A stretch of DNA of 23,007 bases from positions 1-23,007 of the IMG/VR virus record IMGVR_UViG_3300006916_000417. One strand, 5' to 3'. The stretch's first letter is position 1. Every line of letters begins with the position of its first letter. A model generated the notes under the pieces. The model was given only the letters and a program-made list of their open reading frames with translations. It had not been told where the DNA came from and made no database searches. This DNA comes from a virus. Below are positions 4,500 to 23,007 of the stretch, one piece after another. Both the position numbers and the translations under genes were made by a program.

Positions 4500-4501
4500 C
4501 T

Positions 4502-4750: not shown

Positions 4751-4770
4751 AGTGTCCCCTATTAGAGAAT
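4750..4770 (+). promoter_or_regulatory. Putative phage RNA polymerase promoter ahead of packaging/lysis/head genes
   Basis: AAGTGTCCCCTATTAGAGA followed by AT is the closest of the three copies to the shared consensus. It begins on the last base of the preceding stop codon and sits 26 bp before ATG 4796. It would start a transcript covering small terminase, lysis and head genes down to the terminator at 12019. Confidence 0.7.
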
Positions 4771-4795
4771 TTTATAAAAAACAGTGGAGAGTAAC

Positions 4796-5212: not shown

Positions 5213-5234
5213 TGGAACCATATGAGGAATTAAT

Positions 5235-5552: not shown

Positions 5553-5563
5553 AAAGGAAAGTT

Positions 5564-6037: not shown

Positions 6038-6056
6038 TTGAACCCAGGAGCGGATC

Positions 6057-6221
6057 ATGCCAGAAGATAAAACATATATTCAGCAATCTGTTGAACAAGA
6101 TATAAAAGACCAGAAAAAAGAAAAACATGAAGATCGTGTTTTACCAAAGCCTGGAGAATACGACGGAATAGATTTAGAAAGAGCAGCTAAGATATACTCT
6201 CCTATTGGAGGTAAATATTAA
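6057..6221 (+). CDS. Small hypothetical protein, 54 aa
   Basis: ATG 6057 has AGGAGCGG upstream. The 54-codon frame is highly charged (residues 1-27 rich in Asp, Glu, Lys, Gln) with a C-terminal segment LERAAKIYSPIGGKY. Its stop shares bases with the portal start (TAATG), which indicates translational coupling. No family is recognised; the position suggests a minor head or portal-associated protein. Confidence 0.75.
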   Translation: MPEDKTYIQQSVEQDIKDQKKEKHEDRVLPKPGEYDGIDLERAAKIYSPIGGKY

Positions 6222-8380: not shown

Positions 8381-8657
8381 TGCTTCAGGCGTTGGCGCAG
8401 CTCAGTCAGGAACAGTAACTACTGCTGGCGGATCTGGTGGAGGTATTATTATGGTAACAAACCATAGTGATGCTACAATAACGTTTGATGTGGCGACTGC
8501 TGGTACAGTAGTGCAATCAGATTTAACAATAGGGCCTAAGGACTACCAAATAGTCACAGGTCTTAACAATGGTGCACAAACCTTGGTGAACTTAAAAACT
8601 TCTCATGGTACTGCTGCACAAGTTAACGAAGTAGTGTACAATACACTAGTAACCTAA
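8361..8657 (+). CDS. Hypothetical small structural protein, 98 aa
   Basis: 98-residue protein rich in Gly, Thr, Val and Ala, with a predicted all-beta character and no charged clusters. The start lies 20 nt inside the portal gene, with AGGAGG upstream. No family is recognised. Its beta-rich composition and location between portal and scaffold genes suggest a virion component such as a decoration or neck protein. Its weak resemblance in style to the 115-residue protein at 16641 is not strong enough to claim homology. Confidence 0.75.
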   Translation: MGTVTINASGVGAAQSGTVTTAGGSGGGIIMVTNHSDATITFDVATAGTVVQSDLTIGPKDYQIVTGLNNGAQTLVNLKTSHGTAAQVNEVVYNTLVT

Positions 8658-8735
8658 ATGAATAAGGAAGCTATGATAACGCATACTGTTATGGTTATCG
8701 GACTTTGCTTATTCATTTATTATCTTGCTTTTTAA
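8658..8735 (+). CDS. Membrane micropeptide, 25 aa (or 20 aa from ATG 8673)
   Basis: A 25-codon frame starts directly after the previous stop. The inner ATG at 8673 has AAGGA upstream and would give a 20-residue peptide, MITHTVMVIGLCLFIYYLAF, which is essentially one transmembrane helix. It ends just before the ribosome binding site of the Hsp20 gene. It fills an otherwise empty gap exactly and resembles in design the micropeptide at 2352. Expression is unproven. Confidence 0.45.
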   Translation: MNKEAMITHTVMVIGLCLFIYYLAF

Positions 8736-8745
8736 GGAGAAACAA

Positions 8746-9165
8746 ATGAATAGACATTTAGAAATTATAGATTGGTTTAATAATTACACACCTTATACTA
8801 TTGGCTTTGATAGATTGGTGGAACGATTAGCCGCAAATACTAACACGGATACTTATCCTCCGTTTAATATTATAAAGGAGGACGCAGAAAACTTTAAGAT
8901 AGAAATGGCTGTAGCTGGCTTTGAAAAATCTGAAATAGATATTACAGTAGCTGACGGTATGCTATCAATTAAATCTGCAAAAGAGAATAAAAACGATGAT
9001 GATAAACTTTACAGAGGTATTTCTTACAGAAAGTTTAATAAAAAGTTTACGCTAGCTGAAGATGTAATCGTAAAAGACGCATCACTAATCTGCGGATTAT
9101 TAACTATTAAACTAGAAAAAATACTTCCTGAAGAGAAGAAACCTAGGACTATTAAAATAAACTAA
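8746..9165 (+). CDS. Small heat-shock protein, Hsp20/alpha-crystallin family
   Basis: 139-residue ATP-independent holdase chaperone. The alpha-crystallin domain spans about residues 38-130 with the signature GLLTIKLEKILPEE (117-130), and a C-terminal IKI (136-138) matches the I-x-I oligomerisation motif. ATG 8746 follows AAGGAG; a TTG at 8725 in frame overlaps the upstream micropeptide and is less likely. Hsp20 genes are known in marine cyanophages. Here it sits between portal and scaffold genes, suggesting help in folding or assembly of capsid proteins or protection of host proteins late in infection. Confidence 0.9.
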   Translation: MNRHLEIIDWFNNYTPYTIGFDRLVERLAANTNTDTYPPFNIIKEDAENFKIEMAVAGFEKSEIDITVADGMLSIKSAKENKNDDDKLYRGISYRKFNKKFTLAEDVIVKDASLICGLLTIKLEKILPEEKKPRTIKIN

Positions 9166-9173
9166 GGATTATT

Positions 9174-9512
9174 ATGGACCAGTATAAGAAAGCAGCCGAG
9201 ACGAGGCTAAATAATTCTGCGTCCCATGGAAATCATAAAGTTCACCCGGAAGAACTAGCACGAAGAGCCCACACCCGTGGGCACTTTGCAGCTAAAGAAC
9301 GAGATGAGTTTTTTGATCAAGTCTATGGTGATATACTAGTAGAATATTTTATGCAATGGTTAAAAACCGAGCCTCACGAAACTAAGTCTCGAGAGTTTTT
9401 ATATGCATCTGCTATGGCGCTAGGTAGTGTCAAAGAGAAGATGATTGCTTTCGAAACTTATGGAAAAAACATACCACACATGAAGGAGAATAGTAGTGAG
9501 GGAGATAAATAA
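9174..9512 (+). CDS. Hypothetical protein, 112 aa
   Basis: 112-residue soluble protein with several His residues in the N-terminal third (HGNHKVHPEELARRAHTRGH) and a helical, acidic remainder. AAGGA precedes the ATG. No family is recognised. It lies between Hsp20 and scaffold-like genes; the next gene's GTG start overlaps its 3' end by 17 nt. The His cluster could bind metal. Confidence 0.7.
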   Translation: MDQYKKAAETRLNNSASHGNHKVHPEELARRAHTRGHFAAKERDEFFDQVYGDILVEYFMQWLKTEPHETKSREFLYASAMALGSVKEKMIAFETYGKNIPHMKENSSEGDK

Positions 9513-9696
9513 ATCGGAATTATTGTATAATATCGATAATATGATAAATACATTAGAGTATGATTCAATGCGATCACCAGGTAAATGTAAAATAAATGCA
9601 AGTTTATTAGTTAACCTGTATGCTCTTAAAGATGTATATTTAAAGGAATTAAAGAATTCAAAAGCAGCCCCTAAAAAGGAGGTAGCAAATGGATAA
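9496..9696 (+). CDS. Hypothetical protein, 66 aa, GTG start
   Basis: 66-residue small helical protein starting at GTG 9496, with AAGGAG inside the preceding gene seven bases away. The stop overlaps the scaffold-like gene by 8 nt. No family is recognised. Tight overlap on both sides supports a real, translationally coupled gene. Confidence 0.65.
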   Translation: MREINKSELLYNIDNMINTLEYDSMRSPGKCKINASLLVNLYALKDVYLKELKNSKAAPKKEVANG

Positions 9697-10798
9697 CAAT
9701 ACAGAAGCGCAAGTGGACTCTACCCAACAGGATGACTCCCAAGCCGATGTAGGTCGAACAGAGGAACAGTTGCTGGCTGACATTGTTCGTAATTCGGATT
9801 TTGTTTCGAATGACGAGGAATCTCTACCCGAAGAGCAAGTACCTGAGTTAGACCCGGAAAAATCAGATTCAGAGACCCAAGAGTCTGAGGAAGCCGTTAG
9901 TGAAGAAGTTGAAGAAGAGGTTCAAACAGAAGGTGAAGAAGTTCCAGTTGAGGATGCTGCGACTGCCGCTACCCAACAATCTGAAATTTACTCGCAAGAT
10001 GATTTGGACTTAGATGCTAAAGTTTCTGTCAAAATTGATGGACAAGAAACTGAAATATCTTTTGGTGATCTTATTAAAGGTTACTCTACTGAACAATCTC
10101 TTTCTAATAAGGGTCGAGAGCTTGGAGATGCTAGGAAAAAACTCGAAGCAGAATTTCAAAGTAAACTAACAGAGCTTGACAATATGTCTAAAGCAAGTGT
10201 AGCTGTACTTTATTCTCAAGAGAAAGCCAAAGCAGATCAATATCATGAGCTTGAAAAAAAGATCACTGAAGCACGTACAAGTGGTGATACTTACAATTTA
10301 ACTGAATTAAAAGATCAACGCGAACAAGCACAAAAGGAGTATTGGGAAGCCAGACAACAACGTGAGGGTTTAGGACAGGCTGTTCAAAAAAGCCAAGAAG
10401 AACAATTACAAAAGGAATGGCAAGCTTCAATATCTCATTTTAATGAAACAATACCGACGTTAATACCTGGATATGATGAAAGCAAAGCGAAACAAATTCG
10501 TGAGTTTGCATTAGCTGAAGGTATATCTGAAGATGTTTTAAATATGGTAGTTGACCCAACTATTGTAAAGTTTGTTGATGATTACAGACAGTTAAAACAA
10601 GGCGTTACTAAAGGCGCTGTAAAACGTAAAGCATTACCTGCTAAAAAAGCCCCAGTTAAAAAAGCTAAGACTGTTACACAACAGAAATCTGATGCTAAAC
10701 AAGTACTGAGGTCTAAAGTGCTAAGCGGTGAAGGTAATTCAAGTGATGAAAAAGATTTTTTAAGGGCTATGGCTGAGCGATCTCTGGGTAATATTTAA
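9689..10798 (+). CDS. Capsid assembly scaffold-like protein
   Basis: 369-residue protein placed directly before the major capsid gene, the usual position of a scaffold. The first about 105 residues are extremely acidic (Asp/Glu/Gln). A helical, probably coiled-coil region spans about 140-240. A lysine/alanine-rich basic stretch lies near 305-335, followed by a short helical end. Acidic N-terminus, coiled coil and basic C-terminal capsid-binding region fit internal scaffolds that guide prohead assembly and then leave. AAAAAGGAGGT gives a strong start. The alternative, an inner virion protein, cannot be excluded. Confidence 0.75.
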   Translation: MDNNTEAQVDSTQQDDSQADVGRTEEQLLADIVRNSDFVSNDEESLPEEQVPELDPEKSDSETQESEEAVSEEVEEEVQTEGEEVPVEDAATAATQQSEIYSQDDLDLDAKVSVKIDGQETEISFGDLIKGYSTEQSLSNKGRELGDARKKLEAEFQSKLTELDNMSKASVAVLYSQEKAKADQYHELEKKITEARTSGDTYNLTELKDQREQAQKEYWEARQQREGLGQAVQKSQEEQLQKEWQASISHFNETIPTLIPGYDESKAKQIREFALAEGISEDVLNMVVDPTIVKFVDDYRQLKQGVTKGAVKRKALPAKKAPVKKAKTVTQQKSDAKQVLRSKVLSGEGNSSDEKDFLRAMAERSLGNI

Positions 10799-10829
10799 TA
10801 TTAACTCAATGCCTTGGAGGTAACTACTT

Positions 10830-12011
10830 ATGGCTAATACACTCGGTGTACGTGGTACAGGCGGACCAGCAGGTCCAGCGCGTGCTACAAACAAGGACGT
10901 CTCTGAAAGAGAGGATCTTGCTAATTTTATTACAATGATAACAAGGGACGAAACTCCCTTTACAGCATCTATCGGTAAAACTAAAGCTACTGCTATTTAT
11001 CATGAATGGCAGACTGATGAGCTCGAAGCTCCTGGTAACTCACGAATTGGTGAGGGTACTGATTGGATCGCTCCAACTGCTGATGGTTCTGGTGGTACAG
11101 GTGCAACACCTGCTACTGGTGCTAAGTTCGCAGTCTCTGGTCCTAACAGAACCAGACTAGGTAACTATACACAGATCAATGGTAAAACTATTGCTGTGTC
11201 AGGAACTAGACGAGCTGTCGATCAGGCTGGTGTAGCTGATGAATACGCATATCAACTTAAAAAGCGTGGTACTGAACTACGACGTGACGTTGAGTTTGAT
11301 ATGATTCATGCTCATAACATCTCAAATGCTGTAGGTTCGCAAAACGCTAACTCACGTTCTGCGGGTGGATATTCATCATTTATTAACAGTACAGCTACTT
11401 GTAACTATGTAGGGCAATGGGAAGCTCCTTCTGCTGCTACTACAGGTGCAGGTAACGATAATGAAGGTACTGCTATTCCTCGATCTAGCGTTAACGTATC
11501 TTCTTCTGCAGCTCCAAATAGAGGTTCTTTAACATTATCTGATATTGATCAGGTTATGCAGAAAATCTATGAGGAAGGTGGTAAAGCTACTAAAGTTATG
11601 GTTTCACCAAAAATCCGTAGAGATTTCTCTGATTTAATGGTATCTGATACCGGGGTTAAGCGAGAAATCGGTGACAGTGGTAAACTACGACAATCTGTCG
11701 ATGTATACATGTCTGACTTTGGTGACATCATGGTTGTGCCTAACTATATCATGGGATTATCTAACTCTCATGCTGCTATCTTAGGTGATGGCCACGCATC
11801 TAACTATTTCACAAGCAGTGGAATTCCAGATATGGCTGACTTTGCAGCTTACATCTATGATCCAATGTGGTTCTCAACAGCTTACCTACGATCTCTACAA
11901 GAGGTTGACGTAGGACAAAAGGGTGACTCAACTGTCGGAATGATGGTTGAAGAGTGCACTCTTGAAGTGCGTAACCCAAAAGGTTGCGGAGCTATTTACG
12001 GTCTTGCATAA
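10830..12011 (+). CDS. Major capsid protein, SU10-like (DUF5309-type)
   Basis: 393-residue capsid protein, expected to have the HK97 fold. The N-terminal part (DLANFITMITRDETPFTASIG, about residues 30-50) and the KTKATAIYHEWQTDEL segment are typical of the DUF5309/SU10 capsid family, which is found in podoviruses such as the phiEco32/SU10 group. No N-terminal pro-region is visible. GGAGGT lies nine bases upstream and a strong terminator follows the stop. Codon use is less AT-biased than in neighbouring genes, as expected for the most abundant late protein. Confidence 0.9.
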   Translation: MANTLGVRGTGGPAGPARATNKDVSEREDLANFITMITRDETPFTASIGKTKATAIYHEWQTDELEAPGNSRIGEGTDWIAPTADGSGGTGATPATGAKFAVSGPNRTRLGNYTQINGKTIAVSGTRRAVDQAGVADEYAYQLKKRGTELRRDVEFDMIHAHNISNAVGSQNANSRSAGGYSSFINSTATCNYVGQWEAPSAATTGAGNDNEGTAIPRSSVNVSSSAAPNRGSLTLSDIDQVMQKIYEEGGKATKVMVSPKIRRDFSDLMVSDTGVKREIGDSGKLRQSVDVYMSDFGDIMVVPNYIMGLSNSHAAILGDGHASNYFTSSGIPDMADFAAYIYDPMWFSTAYLRSLQEVDVGQKGDSTVGMMVEECTLEVRNPKGCGAIYGLA

Positions 12012-12018
12012 GACTTTT

Positions 12019-12051
12019 TTGGGGAGGTTTAATCGCCTCCCCAATTTTTTT
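12019..12051 (+). terminator. Intrinsic terminator after the major capsid gene
   Basis: TTGGGGAGG pairs with CCTCCCCAA (9 bp) around an 8-nt loop, followed by seven T. It lies just after the capsid stop and would limit transcription into the tail genes. Confidence 0.9.
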
Positions 12052-12064
12052 GATGAGGTAAGCT

Positions 12065-13420
12065 ATGGAAGTACGTGTACCAATGCCAAGACCTAATAAC
12101 ATAGGTCCTTTAGTTGTACCAGCTCCTTTGGCTAAACCACTAGAACTTATGACCATAGATGAAAAGAAAGCTATGGTTGAAAACTATAAAAGAACTGTGC
12201 CTTATCATCATCGTGCGTTAGGAGATGTAGAGTTTAGAGCTGATATTGATAAATACGTTAATACTAGTCCTAGAGCAATACTAGCTCTTCATGATATAGA
12301 AAAAAGAACTGGAGGAGATTACGGTCAGTTAATAGATTTTAATGCGTTTCAAGATGCTGACAAAGATATGGGAGAAGATGGTAACTTAGGTAGTTATAAC
12401 TGGAGACCTATAGGAGTGTTAAACGATCAGTATTTACAAGGTATTACTATAAATCCTGTAGAAACTGATTTCTTAGGAGACCTAATGGCGCAAGATTCTA
12501 GTCTGAGAGAATCGTTTAGAAAAAATAATATTAAAGATATTTATGCAAAATCACCGTGGTGGTCTACACTTAGACACGAGTTAGATCATTATGCAGATGA
12601 TTATCTTTTTGGTCCTCTTAATTTTGCTCAAGCCCCTAACTTAAATACAAGTAAAAGTGGTCCTTTTACTTATGGTACAGCTAGTCGCCCAGATATAGTA
12701 AACGAACAAATGTGGTTAGCAAGTCATGGCTATCAAAGCGCATATGATCCAAGAAGAAGAGAAGTTATAATTACTGGTAAAAGAGATAAGTTTGTTCCTG
12801 AACAAGGACCTTTTTATGATTCAACTACTGAGTTAGGTTCTGACGTACAAAACGTACAAAACTTAATTACTTCTTTAAAAGCTGATTATGCTAAAGCTGA
12901 AGAGGCTGCTGAGCAAAAATTAATTGAAATGGGCTTTGATACACACAACGATATATGGAATAAATACACAAATAAAGAAATTAATAAAGAAGAATATAAA
13001 AAAGAAAACGATAAATATATAGATCGTATGCTTAAGTTTGGAGGAATGAACGATCAACAAAAAGCAATGTTTACAGAAATGGAACGATATGGTGGTAATT
13101 TTACATCATCTATGAGACATAGGAACTTAACTCCTTTAGATGTACTAGATGATAGAAGTACTGGTTACGCAGATTTTCTATATCCTCCAGAGATAGGTGA
13201 TAGCAAAACAGCTGATTTATTAGAGTATGAAAACGTAAATATACCAGAAGGAAGTCATGCTGAAGCAATAAAAGCTATAGAAAGTTTAGCTTTAAAAAGA
13301 TTAGAAGAGTTAGGTGTTCCAAGAACGCCAACAAACATACGTAAATTAAGTCTTTTAGATAGACTTGGTTCAGTGCTAGGATTAAGAGAACTTCCTAAAC
13401 AACCAAGATATACATATTAA
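12065..13420 (+). CDS. Hypothetical protein with HExxH metallopeptidase-like motif
   Basis: 451-residue protein, first gene after the capsid terminator, with a GAGG ribosome binding site. The N-terminus is proline-rich (MPRPNNIGPLVVPAP). At residues 171-175 it has HELDH, in the context WWSTLRHELDHYADD. This is the HExxH zinc-peptidase signature on a plausible helix, followed by Asp178/Asp179. The middle is Lys/Glu-rich (about 265-325). No peptidase family is recognised, and a third zinc ligand is not assigned. Possible roles: a capsid maturation protease, a virion-borne enzyme acting on the host surface, or a structural protein with a chance motif. That it is a real gene is clear. Confidence 0.8.
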   Translation: MEVRVPMPRPNNIGPLVVPAPLAKPLELMTIDEKKAMVENYKRTVPYHHRALGDVEFRADIDKYVNTSPRAILALHDIEKRTGGDYGQLIDFNAFQDADKDMGEDGNLGSYNWRPIGVLNDQYLQGITINPVETDFLGDLMAQDSSLRESFRKNNIKDIYAKSPWWSTLRHELDHYADDYLFGPLNFAQAPNLNTSKSGPFTYGTASRPDIVNEQMWLASHGYQSAYDPRRREVIITGKRDKFVPEQGPFYDSTTELGSDVQNVQNLITSLKADYAKAEEAAEQKLIEMGFDTHNDIWNKYTNKEINKEEYKKENDKYIDRMLKFGGMNDQQKAMFTEMERYGGNFTSSMRHRNLTPLDVLDDRSTGYADFLYPPEIGDSKTADLLEYENVNIPEGSHAEAIKAIESLALKRLEELGVPRTPTNIRKLSLLDRLGSVLGLRELPKQPRYTY

Positions 13421-13434
13421 TAACGGAGGGAAAA

Positions 13435-13656
13435 ATGTACGTTATACGATCCGCAAACGGAAATATATATCCAGTAGATAGATCTGTTTTTAGAATAGCA
13501 GAAGCAACAGGTGGTGGATATAAACTAACTCATTTTACTGCTAATGCAGGTAGTGTAGCAACTAACGCAAACCCAGCAGCTGCAACTGCAGGTGACGAAC
13601 TAGGTTATATAGGTAAGTCAGGTAGATTTGTTGCTATAACAGAACCAGCAACTTAG
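13435..13656 (+). CDS. Hypothetical protein, 73 aa
   Basis: 73-residue protein with a short beta-rich start (MYVIRSANGNIYPVDRSVFRIAEATGGGYKL) and an Ala/Gly/Thr-rich remainder. GGAGGG precedes the ATG. No family is recognised. Size and place between head and neck genes suggest a small virion protein. Confidence 0.7.
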   Translation: MYVIRSANGNIYPVDRSVFRIAEATGGGYKLTHFTANAGSVATNANPAAATAGDELGYIGKSGRFVAITEPAT

Positions 13657-13664
13657 GAGTAATT

Positions 13665-14009
13665 ATGGGTAAACAATATGAATTTGATTTTAGTAGTGCC
13701 ACAGTAGATCCTAAAAAGTCTATTAAAGCAGGATTTGATTTAGAGACCGGACAGTGGCAAGCTACGCAAAACGTTCAACAATATTTAGATAGCGCAAAAT
13801 TAGACAGGGATAAGCAAAACTATTTTGGCAGAACAAAGTATAAAGGTTTTCGTAAGATGGCTACTATACCAGATATAGTTGCTATTAAAATAAAAGAGGA
13901 TTGGGGTATTGATTTACACGATCAAACCTTTATGCAAGATACTGACAAGATGGCAAAATTAAAAATAATTTTAAAGCAAGAATATCCTCATCTATTAATT
14001 AATACATAG
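13665..14009 (+). CDS. Hypothetical protein, 114 aa, conserved type in marine phages
   Basis: 114-residue soluble protein with segments KGFRKMATIPDIVAIKIK and GIDLHD and a C-terminal KQEYPHLLINT. As far as I recall, similar segments occur in small proteins of marine phages next to the neck genes; their function is not known. AGGAG lies upstream of the ATG and the next gene starts 10 bp after the stop. Confidence 0.75.
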   Translation: MGKQYEFDFSSATVDPKKSIKAGFDLETGQWQATQNVQQYLDSAKLDRDKQNYFGRTKYKGFRKMATIPDIVAIKIKEDWGIDLHDQTFMQDTDKMAKLKIILKQEYPHLLINT

Positions 14010-14019
14010 GAGGATTATT

Positions 14020-14883
14020 ATGACCTATGCTGAACTTGTTACATTAGTACGCAGTTGGTGTAATAGAGATGAGGAAGTTGTTAGTGACGATCAAATAAAA
14101 GATTCATTAAAATACGCAGCAGATAAAGCTTACAGAAAACTACGAGTACCTCCTTTAGAAAATGTAGCTGAATACGAAAAGTCTTTATTAGAAGCTGCTT
14201 CAACTACTAGTACATCTACTAGATTAAGCCGAACTGAATTAAAAATACCGTTTGATTTAATAGAAATTATACAAATAAAAGAAATAGACGCTGCTGGTTT
14301 ACCTACTAGAGTATGGAATGAAAAGTTAGATGTAAGAACATTTAATGATCCTTCTGCTGAAAAGTATACTGCCAATAACTATTTTACAAGAGAGCGTAAT
14401 GTTATTTATGTAAGTCCTGCCTTTGGTGAAAACACTAATAGTAATGCGGGTAATGCTATTGAAATGCTATACTACAGGCGTTTACCTGCCCTAGACGCTA
14501 AGTATGCGGTTACTGTACTAAACTATAAAGCTGGATTTTTAACTACATCAGGTGGTACAACACCTTTATACTTTGTAAATGGTAACACAACTGATGCGTA
14601 TTTAACATCTACAGAGGCAACAGCCGCAGCAGATGGTGCAGGAACTAATACAGCAAATTATATAGGCACAGAAGTACCTAATTGGTTACGAGATGAAAAC
14701 GAAAAAATATTATTATATGGAGCTTTAGTAGAAATATTTGCTTTTGTTGGCGATGACGAACAAGCAGCTAAATATAAAATAATGTTTGATGGTGAAATTC
14801 AAGAACTTAATGACGAAGATGCTAAGCGTAATTCTTCTGGAGGTAATGTACAAATAAACTTTAACGGGAGAGGGTTAATATAA
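14020..14883 (+). CDS. Head-tail (neck) adaptor protein
   Basis: 287-residue protein resembling SU10/T7-type adaptors that bind under the portal and link it to the tail. It begins with a helical MTYAELVTLVRSWCNRDEEV segment, has a beta-rich middle with YYRRLPAL, and ends in a helical region with NWLRDENEKILLYGALVEIF (about residues 223-242), the layout of such adaptors. The assignment rests on pattern and position after the capsid gene. AGGAGG precedes the start. Its stop overlaps the next start (TAATG). Confidence 0.7.
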   Translation: MTYAELVTLVRSWCNRDEEVVSDDQIKDSLKYAADKAYRKLRVPPLENVAEYEKSLLEAASTTSTSTRLSRTELKIPFDLIEIIQIKEIDAAGLPTRVWNEKLDVRTFNDPSAEKYTANNYFTRERNVIYVSPAFGENTNSNAGNAIEMLYYRRLPALDAKYAVTVLNYKAGFLTTSGGTTPLYFVNGNTTDAYLTSTEATAAADGAGTNTANYIGTEVPNWLRDENEKILLYGALVEIFAFVGDDEQAAKYKIMFDGEIQELNDEDAKRNSSGGNVQINFNGRGLI

Positions 14884-16631
14884 TGACAACACCAGCACGA
14901 GCAGGTCAGTTTACAGGAGCTACAGACAATGCAGCTAAAGGTGGTTTATTTACTGACTCAAAAATCGACGGTATACCCGATTTGGTGGCAGCAGATGTTG
15001 CATCGGCACAAACTTCTGCAGATACAGCCACTACTCAGGCAGCTACAGCGACTACGCAAGCAACCACAGCAACAACAAAAGCCACAGAAGCGGCAGCTTC
15101 AGCAACTGCAGCAGCTAGTTCTGCAACTGCAGCAGCTACAAGCGCCACAAACGCAGCCAGTAGCGCCACAACAGCTAGCAATGCTGTGTCTTCTGTTAAC
15201 ACAAACGCGACAAACGCTGCTACAAGTGAGACAAATGCAGCAACTAGTGCTACAAACGCAGCAGCTTCAGCTTCGACAGCGTCGACTCAGGCCACAAATG
15301 CCACAACACAAGCAAACTCTGCGCTTTCTAGTGCGTCTGCGGCTAATACAAGCGCTTCTAACGCGTCTACTAGCGCAACTAACGCGTCAAACTCAGCCTC
15401 AGCGGCTGCAACTAGTGCTAGTAACGCTGCAACTAGCTACGATAACTTTGATGACAGGTATTTAGGCGCAAAAAGTAGCAATCCGTCTGCAGATAACGAC
15501 GGAGATTCACTAATTACAGGAGCTTTGTACTTTAATAATACAAGTGGTATGAAAGCTTACAACGGATCTGCGTGGGAAGACTTAAAGCCTACAACTGCAG
15601 AACAAAATAACATAAACAGTCTTGCAGGAATCCTTGATGGTACAAAAACTTATGCCGTAACTGTAACAAACCCAGGCAGTGGTAACGTATTTGTACTAGA
15701 TGGAGTAAATGCTCCTGCATTAACACTAGTAAAAGGATTTACTTATACATTTGACGTAAGCAACGGAACTGTAGGAGGACACCCACTAGCATTTAAAGAT
15801 TCTGGTGGTAATGCTTATACTACCGGTGTAACCGTTAGTGGTAGTGCAGGTAACGCAGGTGCTACGGTTGTATTAGCTATACCTAAAACAGGTACAATGC
15901 CTGCAAGATACTATTGTACTGCTCATGGTAATGCTATGGGTAATACTATTACTGTTGAAGAGAATGATATTGCTACTGTTGCTTCTATATCTACTGAAAT
16001 AGGTGAAGTAGCAGCTATTGATAGTAACGTAACAACCGTTGCAGGTAATAATAGTAATGTAACTACAGTAGCTGGAATATCAGGTAACGTAACCTCAGTA
16101 GCTGGTGTAGCTGCTAACGTAACTACAGTAGCAGGAATAGCAAGTAACGTAACAACTGTGGCAACTAATAATAGTAATGTTAGTACTGTTGCAGGATCTA
16201 TAAGTAACGTAAATACAGCAGCAGGATCTATAGGTAATATTAATACTACAGCTGGAGCTATAAGCAACGTAAATACAGTAGCAAGTAATATAACAGATGT
16301 TAATACTTTTGCTAATAGATATAGAATACAGAGTGGTGAGCCTAGTTCTAGTTTAGATGAAGGGGATTTAGTTTTTGACAGCGCAACAGGAGTAAAAGTA
16401 TTAAAGTATTATAACGGATCTGCATGGGTAGAAGTGGCAGCTAATACAAAAGGTATTGGCAACGGTAATGTAGCAGAATTTACTACAGGCGTAGCTGACG
16501 ACGATTTTTTAAGAATTAGCGGTACAAAAGTAGAAGGACGTTCTGCTTCAGAGGTACTAACAGATATAGGTGGAACTACAGCTACAGCTGCTGCAGATGA
16601 AGCCACAGCATTAGCTATTGCATTAGGATAG
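14883..16631 (+). CDS. Tail fibre protein with Ala-rich shaft, cupredoxin-like domain and 10-residue repeats
   Basis: 582-residue fibre. Residues about 38-190 are Ala/Thr/Ser/Asn repeats of about seven residues (SATAAAS type), a shaft common in marine phage fibres. A tip-type segment with AYNGSAWEDL follows (about 220-233). Residues about 255-362 form a plastocyanin-like domain: GHPLAF with His300, then YYCTAHGNAMG with Cys345, His348 and Met352, the His/Cys/His/Met set of type 1 copper sites. Ten tandem 10-residue repeats of SNVTTVAG type fill 381-480. A second YYNGSAWVEV segment lies near 510-520. The start overlaps the adaptor stop. Fibre role is well supported; copper binding is inference. 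Confidence 0.85.
   Translation: MTTPARAGQFTGATDNAAKGGLFTDSKIDGIPDLVAADVASAQTSADTATTQAATATTQATTATTKATEAAASATAAASSATAAATSATNAASSATTASNAVSSVNTNATNAATSETNAATSATNAAASASTASTQATNATTQANSALSSASAANTSASNASTSATNASNSASAAATSASNAATSYDNFDDRYLGAKSSNPSADNDGDSLITGALYFNNTSGMKAYNGSAWEDLKPTTAEQNNINSLAGILDGTKTYAVTVTNPGSGNVFVLDGVNAPALTLVKGFTYTFDVSNGTVGGHPLAFKDSGGNAYTTGVTVSGSAGNAGATVVLAIPKTGTMPARYYCTAHGNAMGNTITVEENDIATVASISTEIGEVAAIDSNVTTVAGNNSNVTTVAGISGNVTSVAGVAANVTTVAGIASNVTTVATNNSNVSTVAGSISNVNTAAGSIGNINTTAGAISNVNTVASNITDVNTFANRYRIQSGEPSSSLDEGDLVFDSATGVKVLKYYNGSAWVEVAANTKGIGNGNVAEFTTGVADDDFLRISGTKVEGRSASEVLTDIGGTTATAAADEATALAIALG
16023..16322 (+). repeat. Ten tandem 30-nt coding repeats in the tail fibre
   Basis: The protein repeats a 10-residue unit ten times (S/G/A-N-V-T/N-T-V-A-G-x-x). 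The DNA units share ...AACGTAACWACWGTWGC... with many silent changes, so the repeats are old or selected at protein level. They probably form a beta-solenoid or fibrous stalk and are prone to length change by recombination. Confidence 0.8.
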
Positions 16632-16640
16632 GGAGAAACT

Positions 16641-16988
16641 ATGGCAAATACATTTAAATTACATAATCAAGCTACGGCTTCTACAAACGCAATAGGTGGT
16701 GGAGCAGCCGATGATTTTTATACAGTTCCGGGCAGTACAACAACAATTGTTTTAGGATTAATGTTGTGTAACATACATACATCACAAATAACTGTTGATG
16801 TTAAAATTGTTAATGCTAGTCCAAGTGTTACATCTCATTTGCTAAAAGGTGTTGCAATACCTTCAGGAAGCAGCTTAGAAGTATTATCAGGTAATAAGAT
16901 TAATTTAGAAACCGGAGATAAAATACAAATACAATCTAGCGTAGCTGCTAAAGTAAGCGCAACAATGAGTATAATGGAGATAACCTAA
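16641..16988 (+). CDS. Hypothetical structural protein, 115 aa, conserved type in marine phages
   Basis: 115-residue beta-rich protein with segments TTIVLGLMLCNI, HLLKGVAIPSGSSLEVL and ETGDKIQIQS. Similar short proteins are, as far as I recall, common beside marine phage fibres. Function is unknown; probably a tail or virion surface protein. GGGAGAAA precedes the ATG, and its stop overlaps the next start (TAATG). Confidence 0.75.
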   Translation: MANTFKLHNQATASTNAIGGGAADDFYTVPGSTTTIVLGLMLCNIHTSQITVDVKIVNASPSVTSHLLKGVAIPSGSSLEVLSGNKINLETGDKIQIQSSVAAKVSATMSIMEIT

Positions 16989-17437
16989 TGGCACTTATAG
17001 GAAATCAAGCAGCAACAACATATCAACAGATACCTGATGTACAACGATTTAATGGAGATAATAGTGATACTACATTTACTCTTAACCGAACCGTATCTAA
17101 TGTACAAGACATATTGGTATCGGTAGATGGGGTTGTTCAAGATACAACAGCGTATAGCATACCTGACGGAACTACGTTAACTTTTACAGCAGCTCCTTCT
17201 ACAGGTACAGCAAATATATTTGTAAACTATTTAGGATTATCAGAAGGAAGTATAACTCCTCCTGACGCTAACAAAGGTAACTTTAGACTTGGTGGAATGT
17301 TTAGGATTAACGCTCAGACTGTAGACGTTAATACAACTATCAACGCTAATGAAAATGCTAATGTTACAGGACCCATAACAATAGGTAGTGGCATTACGCT
17401 TACCGTAAACTCGGGAGGCCACCTGGCAGTGATATGA
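16988..17437 (+). CDS. Short tail-fibre-associated protein, 149 aa
   Basis: 149-residue beta-rich protein with the marine-phage fibre segment RFNGDNSDTTFTLNRTV and DILVSVDGVVQDTTAYSIPDG. The C-terminus (GPITIGSGITLTVNSGG) matches in style the end of the 153-residue protein at 20503 (GPITLNNATVTVNGVW), so the two are likely paralogues with the same beta-hairpin layout. It probably forms part of a fibre tip or connector. It is coupled on both sides (TAATG start, ATGA end). Confidence 0.75.
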   Translation: MALIGNQAATTYQQIPDVQRFNGDNSDTTFTLNRTVSNVQDILVSVDGVVQDTTAYSIPDGTTLTFTAAPSTGTANIFVNYLGLSEGSITPPDANKGNFRLGGMFRINAQTVDVNTTINANENANVTGPITIGSGITLTVNSGGHLAVI

Positions 17438-17943
17438 GCAACTTATTAGTACAAAATATAAAGCATACGAATAATACTACGGCTATGACAATCGATAGTA
17501 GTGGGCGAGTATTAACTCCTGCAAGACCAACTCTGTTTGCTGATTGCGATAATGGAAGTTCAGCAGGATACGATACAATAGGGGATTTCAGCACAGTGCC
17601 TTATAGAAATATTGTATCGGGTTCTGGTATTTCTTTAGATACATCAGAGTATGCTTTTACAATTCCAATCACTGGTTTTTATCAGGTAAACGCAACAGTA
17701 TTAAATAATAATGTTGAAACTGTTGAGATTGCAATGACAATTGGTGGTGCAAGTAGTTCCAATATAGTTCAAAGGTCTATGTCATATCAAGATAATAAAT
17801 CTTGTTTTTTGCATCATGCAATGGAGCTTCAAACTGGTGATGTATGTAGAATACTAAATGTTTCTGGAGGTAATAGAGGGTTTCACAGAAACACAAATGC
17901 AAATGACAGATATACGTCACTTTCTGTTTATTTAGTAGGATAA
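17434..17943 (+). CDS. C1q/TNF-like fibre tip protein, copy 1
   Basis: 169-residue protein. The N-terminus MSNLLVQNIKHTNNTTAMTI and DSSGRVLTPARP is a fibre-attachment segment shared with the protein at 22112. The rest shows a C1q-like jelly-roll pattern (YAFTIPITGFYQVNA in the middle, final SVYLVG). Such trimeric tips can bind host surface sugars or proteins. It overlaps the preceding gene (ATGA) and is followed by a tail-assembly chaperone, the same pair order as at 22112-22868. Confidence 0.7.
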   Translation: MSNLLVQNIKHTNNTTAMTIDSSGRVLTPARPTLFADCDNGSSAGYDTIGDFSTVPYRNIVSGSGISLDTSEYAFTIPITGFYQVNATVLNNNVETVEIAMTIGGASSSNIVQRSMSYQDNKSCFLHHAMELQTGDVCRILNVSGGNRGFHRNTNANDRYTSLSVYLVG

Positions 17944-17947
17944 CGCC

Positions 17948-18172
17948 ATGAGTGAAGAATTAAATTTTTTAAGACAACATAGAAATAAACTATTAATTGA
18001 AAGCGATTGGACGCAAGCTAATGATAGTCCTTTATCTGATGATAAAAAAGCTGAATGGAAAACATATAGACAAGCGTTACGAGACATTACAAAAACTGCT
18101 AAACCAAAAATGAATAGTAGTTATAGTAATTTAGATATGTCATCTGTAACCTTCCCGGAGAAACCATCATGA
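17948..18172 (+). CDS. Tail fibre assembly chaperone-like protein, copy 1
   Basis: 74-residue protein with the pattern RNKLLIESDWTQANDSPL then WKTYRQALRDI, typical of phage tail assembly chaperone domains. It probably helps fold or attach the fibre tip encoded next to it and is likely not in the virion. It is close to the 22644 copy; the last 21 nt of coding sequence and the following start are identical in DNA. It overlaps the next gene (ATGA). Confidence 0.8.
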   Translation: MSEELNFLRQHRNKLLIESDWTQANDSPLSDDKKAEWKTYRQALRDITKTAKPKMNSSYSNLDMSSVTFPEKPS

Positions 18173-18173
18173 G
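18151..18173 (+). repeat. 23-bp chaperone/fibre junction repeat, copy 1
   Basis: The 3' end of the chaperone-like gene and the first codon of the next fibre gene are identical over 23 bp to 22847-22869. The core reads CCCGGAGAAACCATCATGAG and includes the ribosome binding site and ATGA overlap. Confidence 0.85.
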
Positions 18174-18678
18174 TACATTAAGAGTAGACAACTTACGAGG
18201 ACAGACGGCAGATGGTAAAAGTAGGTATATAGTACAAGTTGCTGAAGCACTTAAGACAGATGTTTTTTCAACATCATCAACTTCTTTTGTTGACGTAACA
18301 GGATTATCTGTGAACATAACACCTAGTTTTTCCACAAGTAAACTGCTTGTTTCATTTAATGTGGCTGTAGGGCGTAATGCAGGGTCTCAAAGCACTATGC
18401 AATTGGTAAGACAAGTTGGTGGGTCAGACACTATTATTAATCCATGCGCATACAATCAAGGAACAACTATGACATTTAATGGCAGTAGTGATGCGGGTTG
18501 GGATAGAGAACTTCAATCTTATCAGTTTCTTGATTCACCCTCAACTACATCACAGGTCAATTATAGATTAAGAACTTACTTTTATAGTGCTAGTTATATT
18601 ATGTATGTAAATCGTTGTCACAATAGTTCAGATGCTACTGGATCGTCTACTTTGACAGTCATGGAGATAGCCCAATGA
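18169..18678 (+). CDS. Short fibre tip protein, 169 aa
   Basis: 169-residue beta-rich protein. The N-terminus MSTLRVDNLRGQT is the shared anchor (VDxIxG type) of this fibre array; the body has SVNITPSFSTSKLLVSFNV and ends in VMEIAQ, a layout seen again at 18675, 20965 and 21477. Probably a trimeric jelly-roll receptor-binding tip. No enzyme motif is seen. Coupled to both neighbours by ATGA overlaps. Confidence 0.7.
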   Translation: MSTLRVDNLRGQTADGKSRYIVQVAEALKTDVFSTSSTSFVDVTGLSVNITPSFSTSKLLVSFNVAVGRNAGSQSTMQLVRQVGGSDTIINPCAYNQGTTMTFNGSSDAGWDRELQSYQFLDSPSTTSQVNYRLRTYFYSASYIMYVNRCHNSSDATGSSTLTVMEIAQ

Positions 18679-19178
18679 GTACACTATCAGTAGATACAAT
18701 ACAAGGCAAGACCACAGCAGGAACATTGGCTATTCCAGCAGGTATGGTAGTGCAAACTGTTTTCCACAAATTCACTACAAACACATCATTAGATAGTAGT
18801 TCAGATACTGATATAGGGGGTACATCACTTACCTTTACACCAAAGTTTGCTTCTAGTCTTTTAATCCTAAGTTGTAGCGTTTCAATTAATATTTATCGTT
18901 CCAACATTAATAACGGATGTACTATTAATTTTAATGTTGATGGGTCAAATATTGATAATACTGGCGAGGATTATGAACTTCTTGATAGCGTACCATCTGG
19001 TAATACAAATGTTTATGTTAGAATGAATAAAGACGTTTCTATGAATGCCTCTAATACAAACGCAAAAACAGTTAAACTTACTGGAAGAGTTTATCAGACT
19101 GGAAGTAGTGGTGTAGCTGTTATAAATTCTGGCTCAAATTTTACAAGCAGCATTACAGTTCAAGAAATATCACAATAG
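18675..19178 (+). CDS. Short fibre tip protein, 167 aa
   Basis: 167-residue member of the same array. The anchor is MSTLSVDTIQGKTTAGTL, followed by PAGMVVQTV; the body has LTFTPKFASSLLILS and ends in VQEISQ. It differs strongly from its neighbours in the body, as expected for receptor-binding variants on a shared anchor. Overlaps the previous gene by ATGA. Confidence 0.7.
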   Translation: MSTLSVDTIQGKTTAGTLAIPAGMVVQTVFHKFTTNTSLDSSSDTDIGGTSLTFTPKFASSLLILSCSVSINIYRSNINNGCTINFNVDGSNIDNTGEDYELLDSVPSGNTNVYVRMNKDVSMNASNTNAKTVKLTGRVYQTGSSGVAVINSGSNFTSSITVQEISQ

Positions 19179-19188
19179 GGAGAAAACA

Positions 19189-19605
19189 ATGACAACAATA
19201 GCAACAGCCTTATCTGAATTAGGCATTAAAGAGTGGGTACTTAGAGGAGAACCTACAAGCGAAGCAGAGTTTAACTCAATGTTTCGAAAAGTAACAGGAG
19301 CAGATAGCAATGGTTCAGCCATTGAGAGTTCTAATCCTAGTGACTTTGGTACTACTTGGAAAGCAGTATCAGATAAAAAGGCAGCACTTATAGCAGCTGC
19401 TCCACTAGCAGAGCTTCGTAACCAACGGAACGCTAAGTTAGCTGAGACAGACTATTTAGCTCTGTCAGACGTAACTTTATCTGCGGATATGAAAACTTAC
19501 AGACAAGCATTACGTGACTTGCCTGCTCATGCAAACGGCAAGGACGCAGCTTTCGATAGTGATGGTAGAACATTGAAGAATGTGACTTGGCCTACTAAAC
19601 CGTAG
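19189..19605 (+). CDS. Fibre-associated protein with C-terminal assembly chaperone domain
   Basis: 138-residue protein of a type common in marine phages. The N-terminal part has LGIKEWVLRGEPTSEAEF and a VTGADSNGSAIESS segment. The C-terminal part (about residues 78-138) has RNAKLAETDYLALSD, MKTYRQALRDLP and final VTWPTKP, the tail-fibre chaperone pattern also found alone in the 74-residue proteins at 17948 and 22644. GGGAGAAA precedes the ATG. Confidence 0.8.
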   Translation: MTTIATALSELGIKEWVLRGEPTSEAEFNSMFRKVTGADSNGSAIESSNPSDFGTTWKAVSDKKAALIAAAPLAELRNQRNAKLAETDYLALSDVTLSADMKTYRQALRDLPAHANGKDAAFDSDGRTLKNVTWPTKP

Positions 19606-19614
19606 GAGGATTAA

Positions 19615-20142
19615 ATGGCTTTAACTAAAGTTAGGACAGCAGGTTTCGACCATGGACAAAAAGGAAATAGTTTAGTTAATACAGGAACTATATTACCTCA
19701 TGGTAGTAGTACAGCTCCTACTGGATTTTTATCCTGTGATGGTAGTGCTGTAAGTCGTACTACATATGCAGATCTTTTTGCTGTAATAGGAACTACCTGG
19801 GGTACGGGTAATGGCTCAAGTACTTTTAACGTACCCGATTTACGTGCAGCTATGATTAGAGGAACTGGTACTCATGGTTCTAGCACTAACGGAAATACTG
19901 GTGCTGCATTTACTAGAGGTAACGTAGGTACTTTAGAAAATGATTCTGTTCAATCTCATTCACATAATATTAGTTTCTATAATGCTGGCTCTGCTCAAGG
20001 GTCAAGTTATAAATCTGGTTCTGGAGGATCGGATTGGGCTGGAAGCACAACAAAAACTGCAATGATCGAGAGTACTGGCGGTAGAAGTGGAAATGAAACA
20101 ACAGGATTTAATGCGTCAGTTTTATACGTAATAAAAACATAG
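19615..20142 (+). CDS. Tail collar domain fibre tip protein
   Basis: 175-residue protein with a phage tail collar domain: GTILPHGSSTAPTGFLSCDG, YADLFAVIGTTWGTG and FNVPDLR (about residues 23-83). Then comes a Gly/Ser/Asn-rich tip with SHSHNISF and a final FNASVLYVIKT, the usual arrangement in short fibre tips. The HSH motif resembles the metal-binding histidines of long-fibre tips. Probably contacts the host receptor. AGGAGG precedes the ATG. Confidence 0.9.
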   Translation: MALTKVRTAGFDHGQKGNSLVNTGTILPHGSSTAPTGFLSCDGSAVSRTTYADLFAVIGTTWGTGNGSSTFNVPDLRAAMIRGTGTHGSSTNGNTGAAFTRGNVGTLENDSVQSHSHNISFYNAGSAQGSSYKSGSGGSDWAGSTTKTAMIESTGGRSGNETTGFNASVLYVIKT

Positions 20143-20151
20143 AGGAAGATT

Positions 20152-20493
20152 ATGGCAATAACTTGGAAAATAAATAACTTAACAAGTAAATCTTCTGATG
20201 GAGGAGTTATTACTGTTGATTGGCAATGTGAAGTTAAAGATGATACGCACAATGATTGTTTGCATATAGTTAAGGATTCATTTAATTGTACTCCTGATCC
20301 TACAGCAGCGGGGTTTATTAAATACACAGACTTAACTGAAAGTAAAGTTTTAGAGTGGGTATACAATAATATACCCGTAGGAGATGAAACTCCTTCTTCT
20401 GCAAAAGCAAGACTTGAAGCATTTGCTTCTAATATTGTAAAAGATATGGTAGAAGATAAAACAAAAAATACAAAAGGTTTACCTTGGAGTTAG
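20152..20493 (+). CDS. Hypothetical protein, 113 aa, MAITWK...GLPW type of marine phages
   Basis: 113-residue protein with MAITWKINNL at the start, TPDPTAAGFIKYTDLTESKVLEW-type middle (TPDP and LEWVYNN visible) and GLPWS at the end. I recognise this layout from small proteins in marine phage fibre regions; function unknown. It lies between tail collar and fibre genes and is likely fibre-associated. AGGAAG precedes the ATG. Confidence 0.75.
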   Translation: MAITWKINNLTSKSSDGGVITVDWQCEVKDDTHNDCLHIVKDSFNCTPDPTAAGFIKYTDLTESKVLEWVYNNIPVGDETPSSAKARLEAFASNIVKDMVEDKTKNTKGLPWS

Positions 20494-20502
20494 GAGAATA
20501 AC

Positions 20503-20964
20503 ATGCCATATATAGGGAAAGCGCCTAACCAAGGAGTTAGGAATAGGTTTGTTTACCAAGCAACAGCTGGCCAGACAAGCTTTAGTGGGTCAGATGCAAA
20601 CTCTCTTACGTTAGCTTATGCTGATGGAGAGTATGTAGATGTATACCAGAATGGAGTATTACTTAAACCTGTAACAGACTATCAGGCTACTTCAGGTACT
20701 ACAGTTATATTAACTACAGGAGCGTCAGTCAGTGACGTTGTAGAGATTATAGCTTATGATGCTTTTACAATAGCTAATAGTTATACTAAAGCAGAAGCAG
20801 ATGATAGGTATCCGTTCTTAGGTAACAACTCAATGATTAGAACAAACGGTAATAGTATTACAGCAGATATAACAATACCTTCTGGTAGCAATGGTATGTC
20901 AGCAGGACCTATTACTCTTAATAACGCGACTGTTACAGTCAATGGCGTATGGACGGTGGTATAA
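20503..20964 (+). CDS. Short tail-fibre protein, MPYIGKAP type, 153 aa
   Basis: 153-residue protein beginning MPYIGKAPNQGVRNRFVYQA, with YVDVYQNGVLLKPVTDYQAT and VVEIIAYDAF, a common marine phage fibre layout. The C-terminal GPITLNNATVTVNGVW parallels the 149-residue protein at 16988. Probably a fibre shaft or connector. Its stop is immediately followed by the next ATG. Confidence 0.8.
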   Translation: MPYIGKAPNQGVRNRFVYQATAGQTSFSGSDANSLTLAYADGEYVDVYQNGVLLKPVTDYQATSGTTVILTTGASVSDVVEIIAYDAFTIANSYTKAEADDRYPFLGNNSMIRTNGNSITADITIPSGSNGMSAGPITLNNATVTVNGVWTVV

Positions 20965-21477
20965 ATGACAAGCAGATTATTAGTAGATAAAATTGAATCA
21001 AAATCAGGCACTCAAATTGATATGTCTACAAATGACGTAATTATGCCAACAGGTCATGTTATTCAAACAACACCAATGGTAGCCATAAATGATGTTCAAG
21101 AAGTAGGGGCTAACTCATCACAAAATACACTCATAGGTAATGGAATTATATGTAGTATTACTCCAAAAAAGGCAAACAGTAAAATTAGAACTTGTTTAAG
21201 TTATTTTGTCTTTGTTGCTGATGGTACAGCAGCTAATATATTTATGGGTAGAAGTGTTGCAGGTGGAACTTATAATTATGTAAATAGTGGGAAAACACAA
21301 AATAGATTTGAAGGTCAATGGAGTAATGGAATCATAGATCTTATTGATACTCCTACATATTCAGTAGGACAAACAATTTCGTATCAACCTTATTGGAATA
21401 CATCAAATACCTCCTCTAATATGTATTTTGGTATTAGTGGTGGAGCTATTACGTTCTATTTACAGGAGATAGCATAA
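20965..21477 (+). CDS. Short fibre tip protein, 170 aa
   Basis: 170-residue member of the array with the anchor LLVDKIESKSGTQIDMSTND and PTGHVIQT, the SITPKKANSKI segment and the end LQEIA. Same plan as the proteins at 18169, 18675 and 21477. Coupled to both neighbours (ATG directly after stop, TAATG at the end). Confidence 0.7.
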   Translation: MTSRLLVDKIESKSGTQIDMSTNDVIMPTGHVIQTTPMVAINDVQEVGANSSQNTLIGNGIICSITPKKANSKIRTCLSYFVFVADGTAANIFMGRSVAGGTYNYVNSGKTQNRFEGQWSNGIIDLIDTPTYSVGQTISYQPYWNTSNTSSNMYFGISGGAITFYLQEIA

Positions 21478-22112
21478 TGGCAAGTGAATTACATGTAGAC
21501 GCGATCAAGCACTCCGGTGGTACGAGTGCCTTGACGATAGATAGTAGTGGGAATATTACAGCTAACGCAAATGTTCATTATGCAGGGGGAGTAGTGCAAA
21601 CAGTAAGCAATACAAGTTATGGAAGTTCTGCATATAGCTTGAGTGCAAATACTGAGCAAAATGTTATCTCTTGTAGCATCACTCCTAAGTATTCAAGCAG
21701 TCATATGTTTATTACTATAATATGGTATTATGCTCCAATAAGCAGTAATGATGATTATGGTCTTGCAATGAGAAGGGAAATAGGTGGTTCATTAACTGGG
21801 TATGTTAATGGTTCTACAAGACCAGATGCCACAAGAGGAAAATTTACTGTAGGAAGCACTACAAGAGAACCTTTTTTCTGGCATGATGATGCACCTAATA
21901 ACGCAAATGGGTCAAGAATATACTATGATTATTCAGTTATGCCAGCTTCAGCTTTTCTAAAAGATACCTATTCTGGAACTGATGCAAGAACTTATCAAAT
22001 GACATTAGGCACTTCAGATACAGGAAAAACTATATATTGGAATAGGAATACTCAAGGTACAGTATCAGGTGGTGGAAACACAGCTATCATAATACAGGAG
22101 GTAGCACAATAA
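21477..22112 (+). CDS. Short fibre tip protein, 211 aa
   Basis: 211-residue member of the array and the longest of this group. The anchor is LHVDAIKHSGGTSALTIDSS, then GGVVQTV; the body has SITPKYSSSHMFIT and a tyrosine-rich middle with PFFWHDDAP, ending IIIQEVAQ. It combines the TIDSSG anchor of the C1q-like tips with the jelly-roll body of the others, as if modules have been shuffled. TAATG overlaps at both ends. Confidence 0.7.
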   Translation: MASELHVDAIKHSGGTSALTIDSSGNITANANVHYAGGVVQTVSNTSYGSSAYSLSANTEQNVISCSITPKYSSSHMFITIIWYYAPISSNDDYGLAMRREIGGSLTGYVNGSTRPDATRGKFTVGSTTREPFFWHDDAPNNANGSRIYYDYSVMPASAFLKDTYSGTDARTYQMTLGTSDTGKTIYWNRNTQGTVSGGGNTAIIIQEVAQ

Positions 22113-22639
22113 TGGCCTCAATAATAAAAGTAAATACCATACAAGACGCAACGAACTCTAATACTGCTATGACTATTGATAGCACAGGACGTATTCTAAC
22201 TCCTGCCAGACCTGCGTTTAGAGCTACAATAGCAGGGTCAAGTTCATCACATGGCGATCAAGGTGTGTTGATTTTTGAAACAGAAGATTTTGATACTGGT
22301 GGAAATTATGACCACACAAATGGCACATTCACTGCTCCAATAGCAGGGATATATCATTTTATGTTTAGGTCTTTGACTGCGACAACAAATGGAGGTGTTG
22401 CGTCTAATGATGGTGACGTTGTATTTGCAGACATACAAAAAAATGGTTCTAATGTCTCTGGTACTAGAGCTTACTCTTATTTTGCGAGTGCAGGAGCGCA
22501 TCATGCAACACTTATGATTAATCAAATACTTCAATTATCTGCTACTGACACAATAAGAATTAATGTTCCTCAGGAGTTTGTGTATTCTGATACGAATGCG
22601 CAAAATGACCCAACTTTTCAAGGATATTTATTAGGATAA
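22112..22639 (+). CDS. C1q-like fibre tip protein, copy 2
   Basis: 175-residue protein with anchor MASIIKVNTIQ and TAMTIDSTGRILTPARP, nearly the same as the 17434 protein. A clear C1q-like domain follows: FDTGGNYDHTNGTFTAPIAG, IYHFMF, DIQKNGSNVSG, LQLSATDTIRINV and final FQGYLLG. C1q-like folds form trimers that bind varied ligands, fitting a receptor-binding tip. A chaperone-like gene follows. Confidence 0.8.
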   Translation: MASIIKVNTIQDATNSNTAMTIDSTGRILTPARPAFRATIAGSSSSHGDQGVLIFETEDFDTGGNYDHTNGTFTAPIAGIYHFMFRSLTATTNGGVASNDGDVVFADIQKNGSNVSGTRAYSYFASAGAHHATLMINQILQLSATDTIRINVPQEFVYSDTNAQNDPTFQGYLLG

Positions 22640-22643
22640 AGAT

Positions 22644-22868
22644 ATGTCAAAAGAAATGGAAAAATTAAGAGTAGTAAGAAATGAAATGTTGTCAGATAGT
22701 GATTGGTCAGTTATGCCAGACAGCCCCTTATCAGATAGTAAGAAAGATGAGTGGAAAACATACAGACAAGCTTTAAGAGATATAACGAAAACGTCTAGTC
22801 CAAAGATTGACTTTGATACATTACAAGTAGATCCATCCTCAGTAATCTTCCCGGAGAAACCATCATGA
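22644..22868 (+). CDS. Tail fibre assembly chaperone-like protein, copy 2
   Basis: 74-residue protein with RNEMLSDSDWSVMPDSPL, WKTYRQALRDI and final FPEKPS, a paralogue of the 17948 protein of exactly the same length. Its 3' end and the start of the following gene are identical in DNA to the corresponding junction at 18151-18173. It overlaps the next gene by ATGA. It likely assists folding of the preceding C1q-like tip or the following fibre protein. Confidence 0.8.
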   Translation: MSKEMEKLRVVRNEMLSDSDWSVMPDSPLSDSKKDEWKTYRQALRDITKTSSPKIDFDTLQVDPSSVIFPEKPS

Positions 22869-22869
22869 G
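22847..22869 (+). repeat. 23-bp chaperone/fibre junction repeat, copy 2
   Basis: Exact match of the junction at 18151-18173 at the end of the second chaperone-like gene. It could serve as a homology point for exchange of fibre genes. Confidence 0.85.
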
Positions 22870-23007
22870 CAAAGCAGCAGAGCTAGCCAGCTTAATAGGC
22901 AACATCAACGCAGGCGGTGGTGGAGTAAATAGGAACTGTGTAATTAACGGAGATATGAGCGTTAGTCAGAGGGCAACATCCGTTTCATCTATTACAGGAG
23001 CAGGATA
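22865..23007 (+). CDS. Fibre protein, partial at right edge
   Basis: ATG 22865 opens a frame that runs off the window after 47 codons. It begins MSKAAELASLIGNINAGGGG and continues with NRNCVINGDMSVSQRATS, a start I know from large fibre or receptor-binding proteins of marine podoviruses (INGxMxVxQR). It shares the ATGA overlap with the chaperone-like gene. C-terminal domains are not visible. Confidence 0.75.
   Translation, partial: MSKAAELASLIGNINAGGGGVNRNCVINGDMSVSQRATSVSSITGAG

Follow-up and report, generated by a model that had tools for sequence, protein, structure and literature searches.

A fixed-order fibre array with movable heads in a viral contig, and the probable reason for its identical 23-bp gene junctions

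Why do two tail-fibre units lying apart in one viral contig end in exactly the same 23 bp? The question is raised by the IMG/VR record IMGVR_UViG_3300006916_000417, which was analysed over its whole length of 23,007 bp (hereafter the window) and which is linear and probably a fragment. The fibre array of this marine phage (16988–23007, all genes on the plus strand) contains two units, at 17434–18172 and 22112–22868, in which a tip gene is followed by a gene of 74 residues of the Phage_tail_APC family (hereafter APC), and the first-pass annotation had described them as duplicated units that exchange receptor-binding genes by recombination at their shared ends. The comparison with related contigs makes it probable that the locus is an array of fixed order in which each slot has its own anchor, the heads are movable, the start signals are embedded in the gene ends, and heads are exchanged between coinfecting phages under the guidance of homology. 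The identical junction itself is best read as coding sequence with a predicted embedded start signal and an overlapping start codon.

The two copies of the junction (18151–18173 and 22847–22869, plus strand) read CTTCCCGGAGAAACCATCATGAG, and the identity extends over exactly 23 bp, as had been reported. The window has two copies of the 22-bp core, which is absent from shuffled sequence, and a 23-bp run within the pair apcA/apcB has P = 0.003 by site permutation and P = 0.018 by codon-block permutation. Given the homology of both APC genes, the surprise of such a run is modest; among 143 pairs of short APC genes with 65–85% identity over their last 150 nucleotides (nt), the bases spanning the stop codon are identical over 23 bp or more in 23 pairs (16%). 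The sequence spans the terminal codons of the chaperone-like gene (FPEKPS), which include a GGAG ribosome-binding site, together with the stop codon and the start codon (ATG) of the gene that follows, these two overlapping as ATGA.

The relatives clarify what these terminal codons do. In them, the last codons of the APC gene include GGAG or GAGG in seven of seven cases in which the next gene overlaps and in none of 14 in which a spacer intervenes (Fisher P = 9e-6); at the spaced junctions, TAGGAT, TAGGAG or AAGGA is mostly found in the spacer instead. The head genes that end in E-I/V-x-x have GAG as the codon for this glutamate in 121 of 124 cases when the neighbouring gene starts within 4 nt, and in five of 25 when the gap is wider, with GAG making up 25–32% of the other glutamate codons. 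The contigs are related, which makes these P values generous, as it does the one given below for exchange, but the cultured SAR116 phage HMO-2011 likewise has GGAG within the terminal codons for GDLA and WPEKP that precede the next gene. It is thus shown statistically that, at junctions where two genes touch or overlap, the predicted ribosome-binding site of the downstream gene is encoded in the end of the head or chaperone gene before it. The 23 bp are identical because the gene ends carry this site together with the overlapping start codon, and the special role in recombination once proposed for them is not supported. When 2.9 million viral contigs were searched for exact copies of the 22-bp core, the one contig that contained it was a near-identical sibling of the window (L003; contigs are cited by such working labels), and the junction is therefore not a widespread site; a megablast search of isolate phages gave no match. 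The general warning is that short exact repeats at the ends of genes in operons of this kind need not mark recombination sites.

Open reading frames are present throughout both units: tipA (17434–17943, slot A, 169 residues) with apcA (17948–18172), and tipB (22112–22639, slot H, 175 residues, anchor MASIIKVNTIQDATN) with apcB (22644–22868); the unit anchors read TTAMTIDSSGRVLTPARP and NTAMTIDSTGRILTPARP. With PF16778, apcA scores 61.9 bits (5e-17), apcB 56.1 bits (3e-15) and the longer gene apcL (19189–19605) 49.6 bits (4e-13), all above the curated cut-off of 26.6, so that the three belong to the family, whose chaperone activity is putative and named from annotation. The notion that the units are duplicates is misleading. 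The products of apcA and apcB are identical at 46 of 74 residues (62%; the genes are 65% identical in DNA, free of gaps), each is 72–73% identical in amino acids to its nearest relative in another phage, and a tree of 68 short APC genes does not place the two as sisters. A recent local duplication of both units is ruled out, because each APC copy is closer to those of other phages than to its counterpart. The tips point the same way, since the slot A tips of L164 and L165 have 79% identity with tipA, and the heads closest to tipB in the slot comparison (51–58%) sit in slot A of other phages. A strict tie between head and chaperone was also discarded: L164 and L165 carry their tipA relative with no adjoining APC gene. 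In one pair, slot H of L254 and slot A of L177, head and chaperone do match jointly, up to stop +216.

With regard to the fold of the heads, tipB matches the C1q profile PF00386 (43.3 bits, 5e-11, cut-off 23.7), and a Pfam search with tipA gave no C1q match and retrieved BclA_C alone, at 0.015 and below the cut-off. The AlphaFold model of tipA (mean pLDDT 82) matches TNF and C1q domain structures (best E 8e-8, probability 1.00), and the label C1q-like therefore holds by profile for tipB and, as C1q/TNF-like, through the predicted fold only for tipA. The model of the slot D head (18675–19178) matches TNF-like lectins, namely PLTL of Photorhabdus (TMt up to 0.82) and BC2L-C of Burkholderia, but its very best E-values belong to Pgp3 of Chlamydia. 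The heads that were modelled or profiled are jelly-rolls of the C1q/TNF-like type.

These units are part of a larger order. The loci used for comparison were fetched from IMG/VR through the portal, APC, tip and stem proteins, and across about 90 of these contigs the gene order is fixed as S1-A-(apc)-C-D-apcL-E-S2-F-G-H-(apc)-Z, where S1 and S2 are stem/adaptor proteins and Z closes the array; in shorter related arrays some slots are missing. The short APC gene is optional and may come after A, G or H, and it is lacking at A in L164, L165, L216 and L217. Every slot has its own N-terminal anchor of about 15 residues, followed by a replaceable head, and in slots A, G and H the slot anchor is followed by the common linker TAMTIDSSGR. 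In five siblings of the window (L244, L245, L246, L239 and L316), S1, S2 and apcL are 87–99% identical in amino acids to those of the window (89–96% for apcL), whereas the heads in the same slots are only 20–44% identical, and the DNA homology to several relatives ends at base 17528, which is the end of the slot A anchor.

The heads, in turn, are not confined to one slot. When 355 heads were grouped into families at a threshold of at least 70% identity, 55 families had at least two members, and 22 of these 55 were found behind different anchors; slots A and H have six head families in common. The closest case is the head in slot H of L256, which is that of slot A of L266 (99% in amino acids, 96.5% in DNA). 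In the best A/H match the DNA similarity runs from start +41/+47 to stop +8/+9, its 5' edge being the end of the slot-specific part of the anchor, and in the best A/H pairs the 5' boundary falls in the TAMTID part, between start +41 and +52. More generally, of 24 representative cross-slot pairs, 23 have their 5' boundary no more than 120 nt from the start; at the 3' side the boundary is no more than 12 nt from the stop in 16 pairs, six pairs end earlier and two run further. The first-pass annotation was correct, then, in that putative receptor-binding genes are exchanged, also between A and H, but the boundaries are at the anchor and usually at the stop codon, not at the 23-bp junction.

The window takes part in this traffic. 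Its slot D head is 79–84% identical in amino acids to the slot F heads of L248, L249 and L250, and in the case of L250 the DNA of the head is 90.6% identical while S2 and apcL are at 66–76%. Exchange between slots is enriched among those with like linkers (A/G/H; D/F), which account for 13 of 24 cases against 26% expected (P = 0.003), an enrichment that fits homology-guided recombination. Within L246, the genes at 2374–2886 (slot D) and 5376–5663 (slot G) have the same head (86% in amino acids; 95.8% in DNA over 190 nt), a candidate for a recent copy between slots inside one genome. In L288, positions 144–1060 join a slot A anchor to a head of the slot D type with apcL directly after, as would be expected from a deletion between A and D. 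In L250, the gene at 679–1185 has a slot F anchor and a slot D type head, followed by downstream genes of the D type with apcL next, with 98.6% identity to L284 over 1994 nt; because L250 may have arisen by rearrangement or as a chimera of assembly, no decisive weight was given to it.

Could the 23-bp repeats nevertheless be sites at which the genome rearranges, by deletion or by switching between the two units? Exact direct repeats of such kind can recombine, and L239 runs from junction 1 to a point inside the slot H anchor (its positions 1–52 and 4559–4617 correspond to 18164–18215 and 22097–22155 of the window), ends that would suit an assembly halted at a branch point; assemblies that break at anchors common to several variants would be expected to have the same ends. 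Such a rearrangement is nonetheless very unlikely. The deletion would take out slots C to H, and its predicted A-apc-Z product is found in no contig, that is, in none is the gene that follows the second unit joined to the first. The inversion that had also been suggested is impossible, since units and junctions are direct repeats. L003 is 99.9% identical to the window and collinear with it from 11937 to 18361, straight through junction 1 (another sibling, L004, is 99.8% identical and ends at 16049; junction 2 is covered by no sibling more than 99% identical), and the repeat is already accounted for by the function of the gene ends. Nor was a resolvase-type recombinase found in 18 relatives, where a search for the serine recombinase family PF00239 gave no match (controls positive in 10 of 14). 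The latter result bears equally on the idea that the variation is made by a dedicated device, either a diversity-generating retroelement or an invertase of the Mu/P1 type, for which it may be said that the C1q heads of marine phages are known to be hypervariable behind a conserved N-terminus (PMC3909814). An invertible switch was rejected on the absence of PF00239 from the 18 relatives and on the direct orientation of the repeats, and a retroelement on the absence of reverse transcriptase (PF00078) from the same relatives (controls positive in three of 14), which stand in here for the part of the phage's own genome that lies beyond the record; heads that are 95–99% identical behind different anchors are not a product of templated mutation. 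This explanation is thus extremely unlikely, and a dedicated switch is not supported.

A further possibility is ordinary descent, in which the heads diverge rapidly in place, without exchange between slots, and the cross-slot matches reflect old paralogy. It would agree with the fixed order of the slots, with the many heads that have no close relative, and with the fact that 26 of 44 same-slot pairs likewise have heads more alike than their backbones. It is, however, difficult to reconcile with heads of separate phages whose DNA is 92–97% identical although their anchors differ, the homology ending at the anchor, and with the observation that the head similarity exceeds the apcL/S2 backbone similarity of the same contigs in 24 of 33 cross-slot pairs (for instance, slot D of L246 against slot A of L288, with 93.5% in the head and 67–68% in the backbone); descent in place is accordingly regarded as improbable. 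The pattern supports, as far as contig comparison can suggest, exchange between phages over evolutionary time rather than a switch inside one genome.

The proposal of homology-guided head exchange in a fixed-order array implies several steps. Homologous or homeologous recombination between coinfecting phages would exchange the heads, guided by the common anchors, stems and gene ends; the heads would bind structures of the host surface, probably sugars, and the anchors would determine the place of each head on the tail. Several observations weigh against this proposal. The evidence for exchange comes throughout from the comparison of metagenome contigs, with no recombination event or read observed, and for single cases such as L250 an origin as assembly chimeras has to be allowed for. 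The 3' boundary lies away from the stop in eight of the 24 cross-slot pairs, the enrichment between like linkers could also be due to compatibility of folds, searches for ERF and RecA in 18 relatives found no recombinase, and the location of the array proteins in the virion is assigned through annotation and homology. A wider formulation is offered tentatively, as one that may well prove mistaken: that of a plug-in system of receptor recognition, in which the anchors address heads to places on the tail, each head carries the next gene's start signal at its end, jelly-roll heads from a common pool pass from place to place and from one phage group to unrelated others, and new combinations keep the expression of the neighbouring gene.

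How does this array relate to what is known of other phages? The fibre cluster of HMO-2011 (gp41–gp28) has a like layout, with the C1q protein gp31 followed by the APC-like gp30, homologous S1, S2, APC and closing genes, and GGAG in the gene ends. On the other hand, the head and capsid genes of the window are unrelated to those of HMO-2011, the fibre heads differ, and the HMO-2011 annotation has neither slots nor exchange. The window capsid, portal, terminase and scaffold have no match in HMO-2011, so that the window does not belong to the HMO-2011 type even though its fibre array matches. For terminase, portal and capsid the closest isolate is the Roseobacter phage CRP-7 (53–56% in amino acids; 39–56% when the scaffold is included). 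In the part of CRP-7 that was examined there is, unlike in the window, neither an APC gene nor an array of this kind; S1, apcL and Z have no match in CRP-7, and S2 has partial similarity only, inside a larger CRP-7 protein. The result is a mosaic at the level of blocks, in which the head and packaging genes (2422–14883) match CRP-7 and the array (16988–23007) matches HMO-2011, and the array therefore appears to have moved between phage groups as a block. This agrees with the module recombination described for the morphogenesis genes of HMO-2011-type phages (PMC8528129).

The array is a variant of known fibre modularity, and hypervariable C1q and fibre genes with a conserved N-terminus were already known from marine phages. 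Their metaviromic islands contain receptor-binding genes of the C1q type in which the N-terminus is conserved and the globular head varies (PMC3909814); reads were recruited poorly to the head in that study, whose consulted passages mention neither slots in a set order nor one head behind several anchors. Modular receptor-binding proteins such as the Klebsiella tailspikes likewise combine a conserved anchor with an independent receptor-binding part but are usually one or two large proteins (PMC12692247), whereas here many small genes stand in a row, with an anchor for each place and heads that change places. The open-access literature that was searched contained no account of a head passing from one anchor of an array to another, or of a start signal carried by the head. 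What is gained is that the known hypervariability of the host-recognition genes of marine phages becomes a readable grammar, with fixed places, named anchors, movable heads and defined boundaries, by which heads can be catalogued across contigs, tied to hosts and tracked through time.

The remaining genes of the array can be placed as follows. S1 (16988–17437; phrog_18673, tail fiber, 1e-30; 68% to HMO-2011 gp41) precedes tipA, and the slot C head gene (18169–18678; anchor MSTLRVDNLRGQTADG; phrog_6942, tail fiber, 4e-14) starts in junction 1 and is assigned also by array order. Slot E (19615–20142) encodes a tail collar domain protein (PF07484, 2e-21), and S2 (20503–20964) is 71% identical to HMO-2011 gp33. 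The head genes of slot F (20965–21477; anchor MTSRLLVDKIE) and slot G (21477–22112; anchor MASELHVDAIKHSGG) are assigned by array order, and the start of Z (22865–23007; MSKAAELASLI; 57% to HMO-2011 gp28) is cut by the end of the record. Outside the array, two candidate cell-wall enzymes lie at 4068–4499 and 5564–6037 (Hydrolase_2, 9e-26, and a weak Peptidase_M15_4 match, 0.0075, below the cut-off), and a small heat-shock protein gene (8725–9165; HSP20, 7e-20) lies between the portal and scaffold genes.

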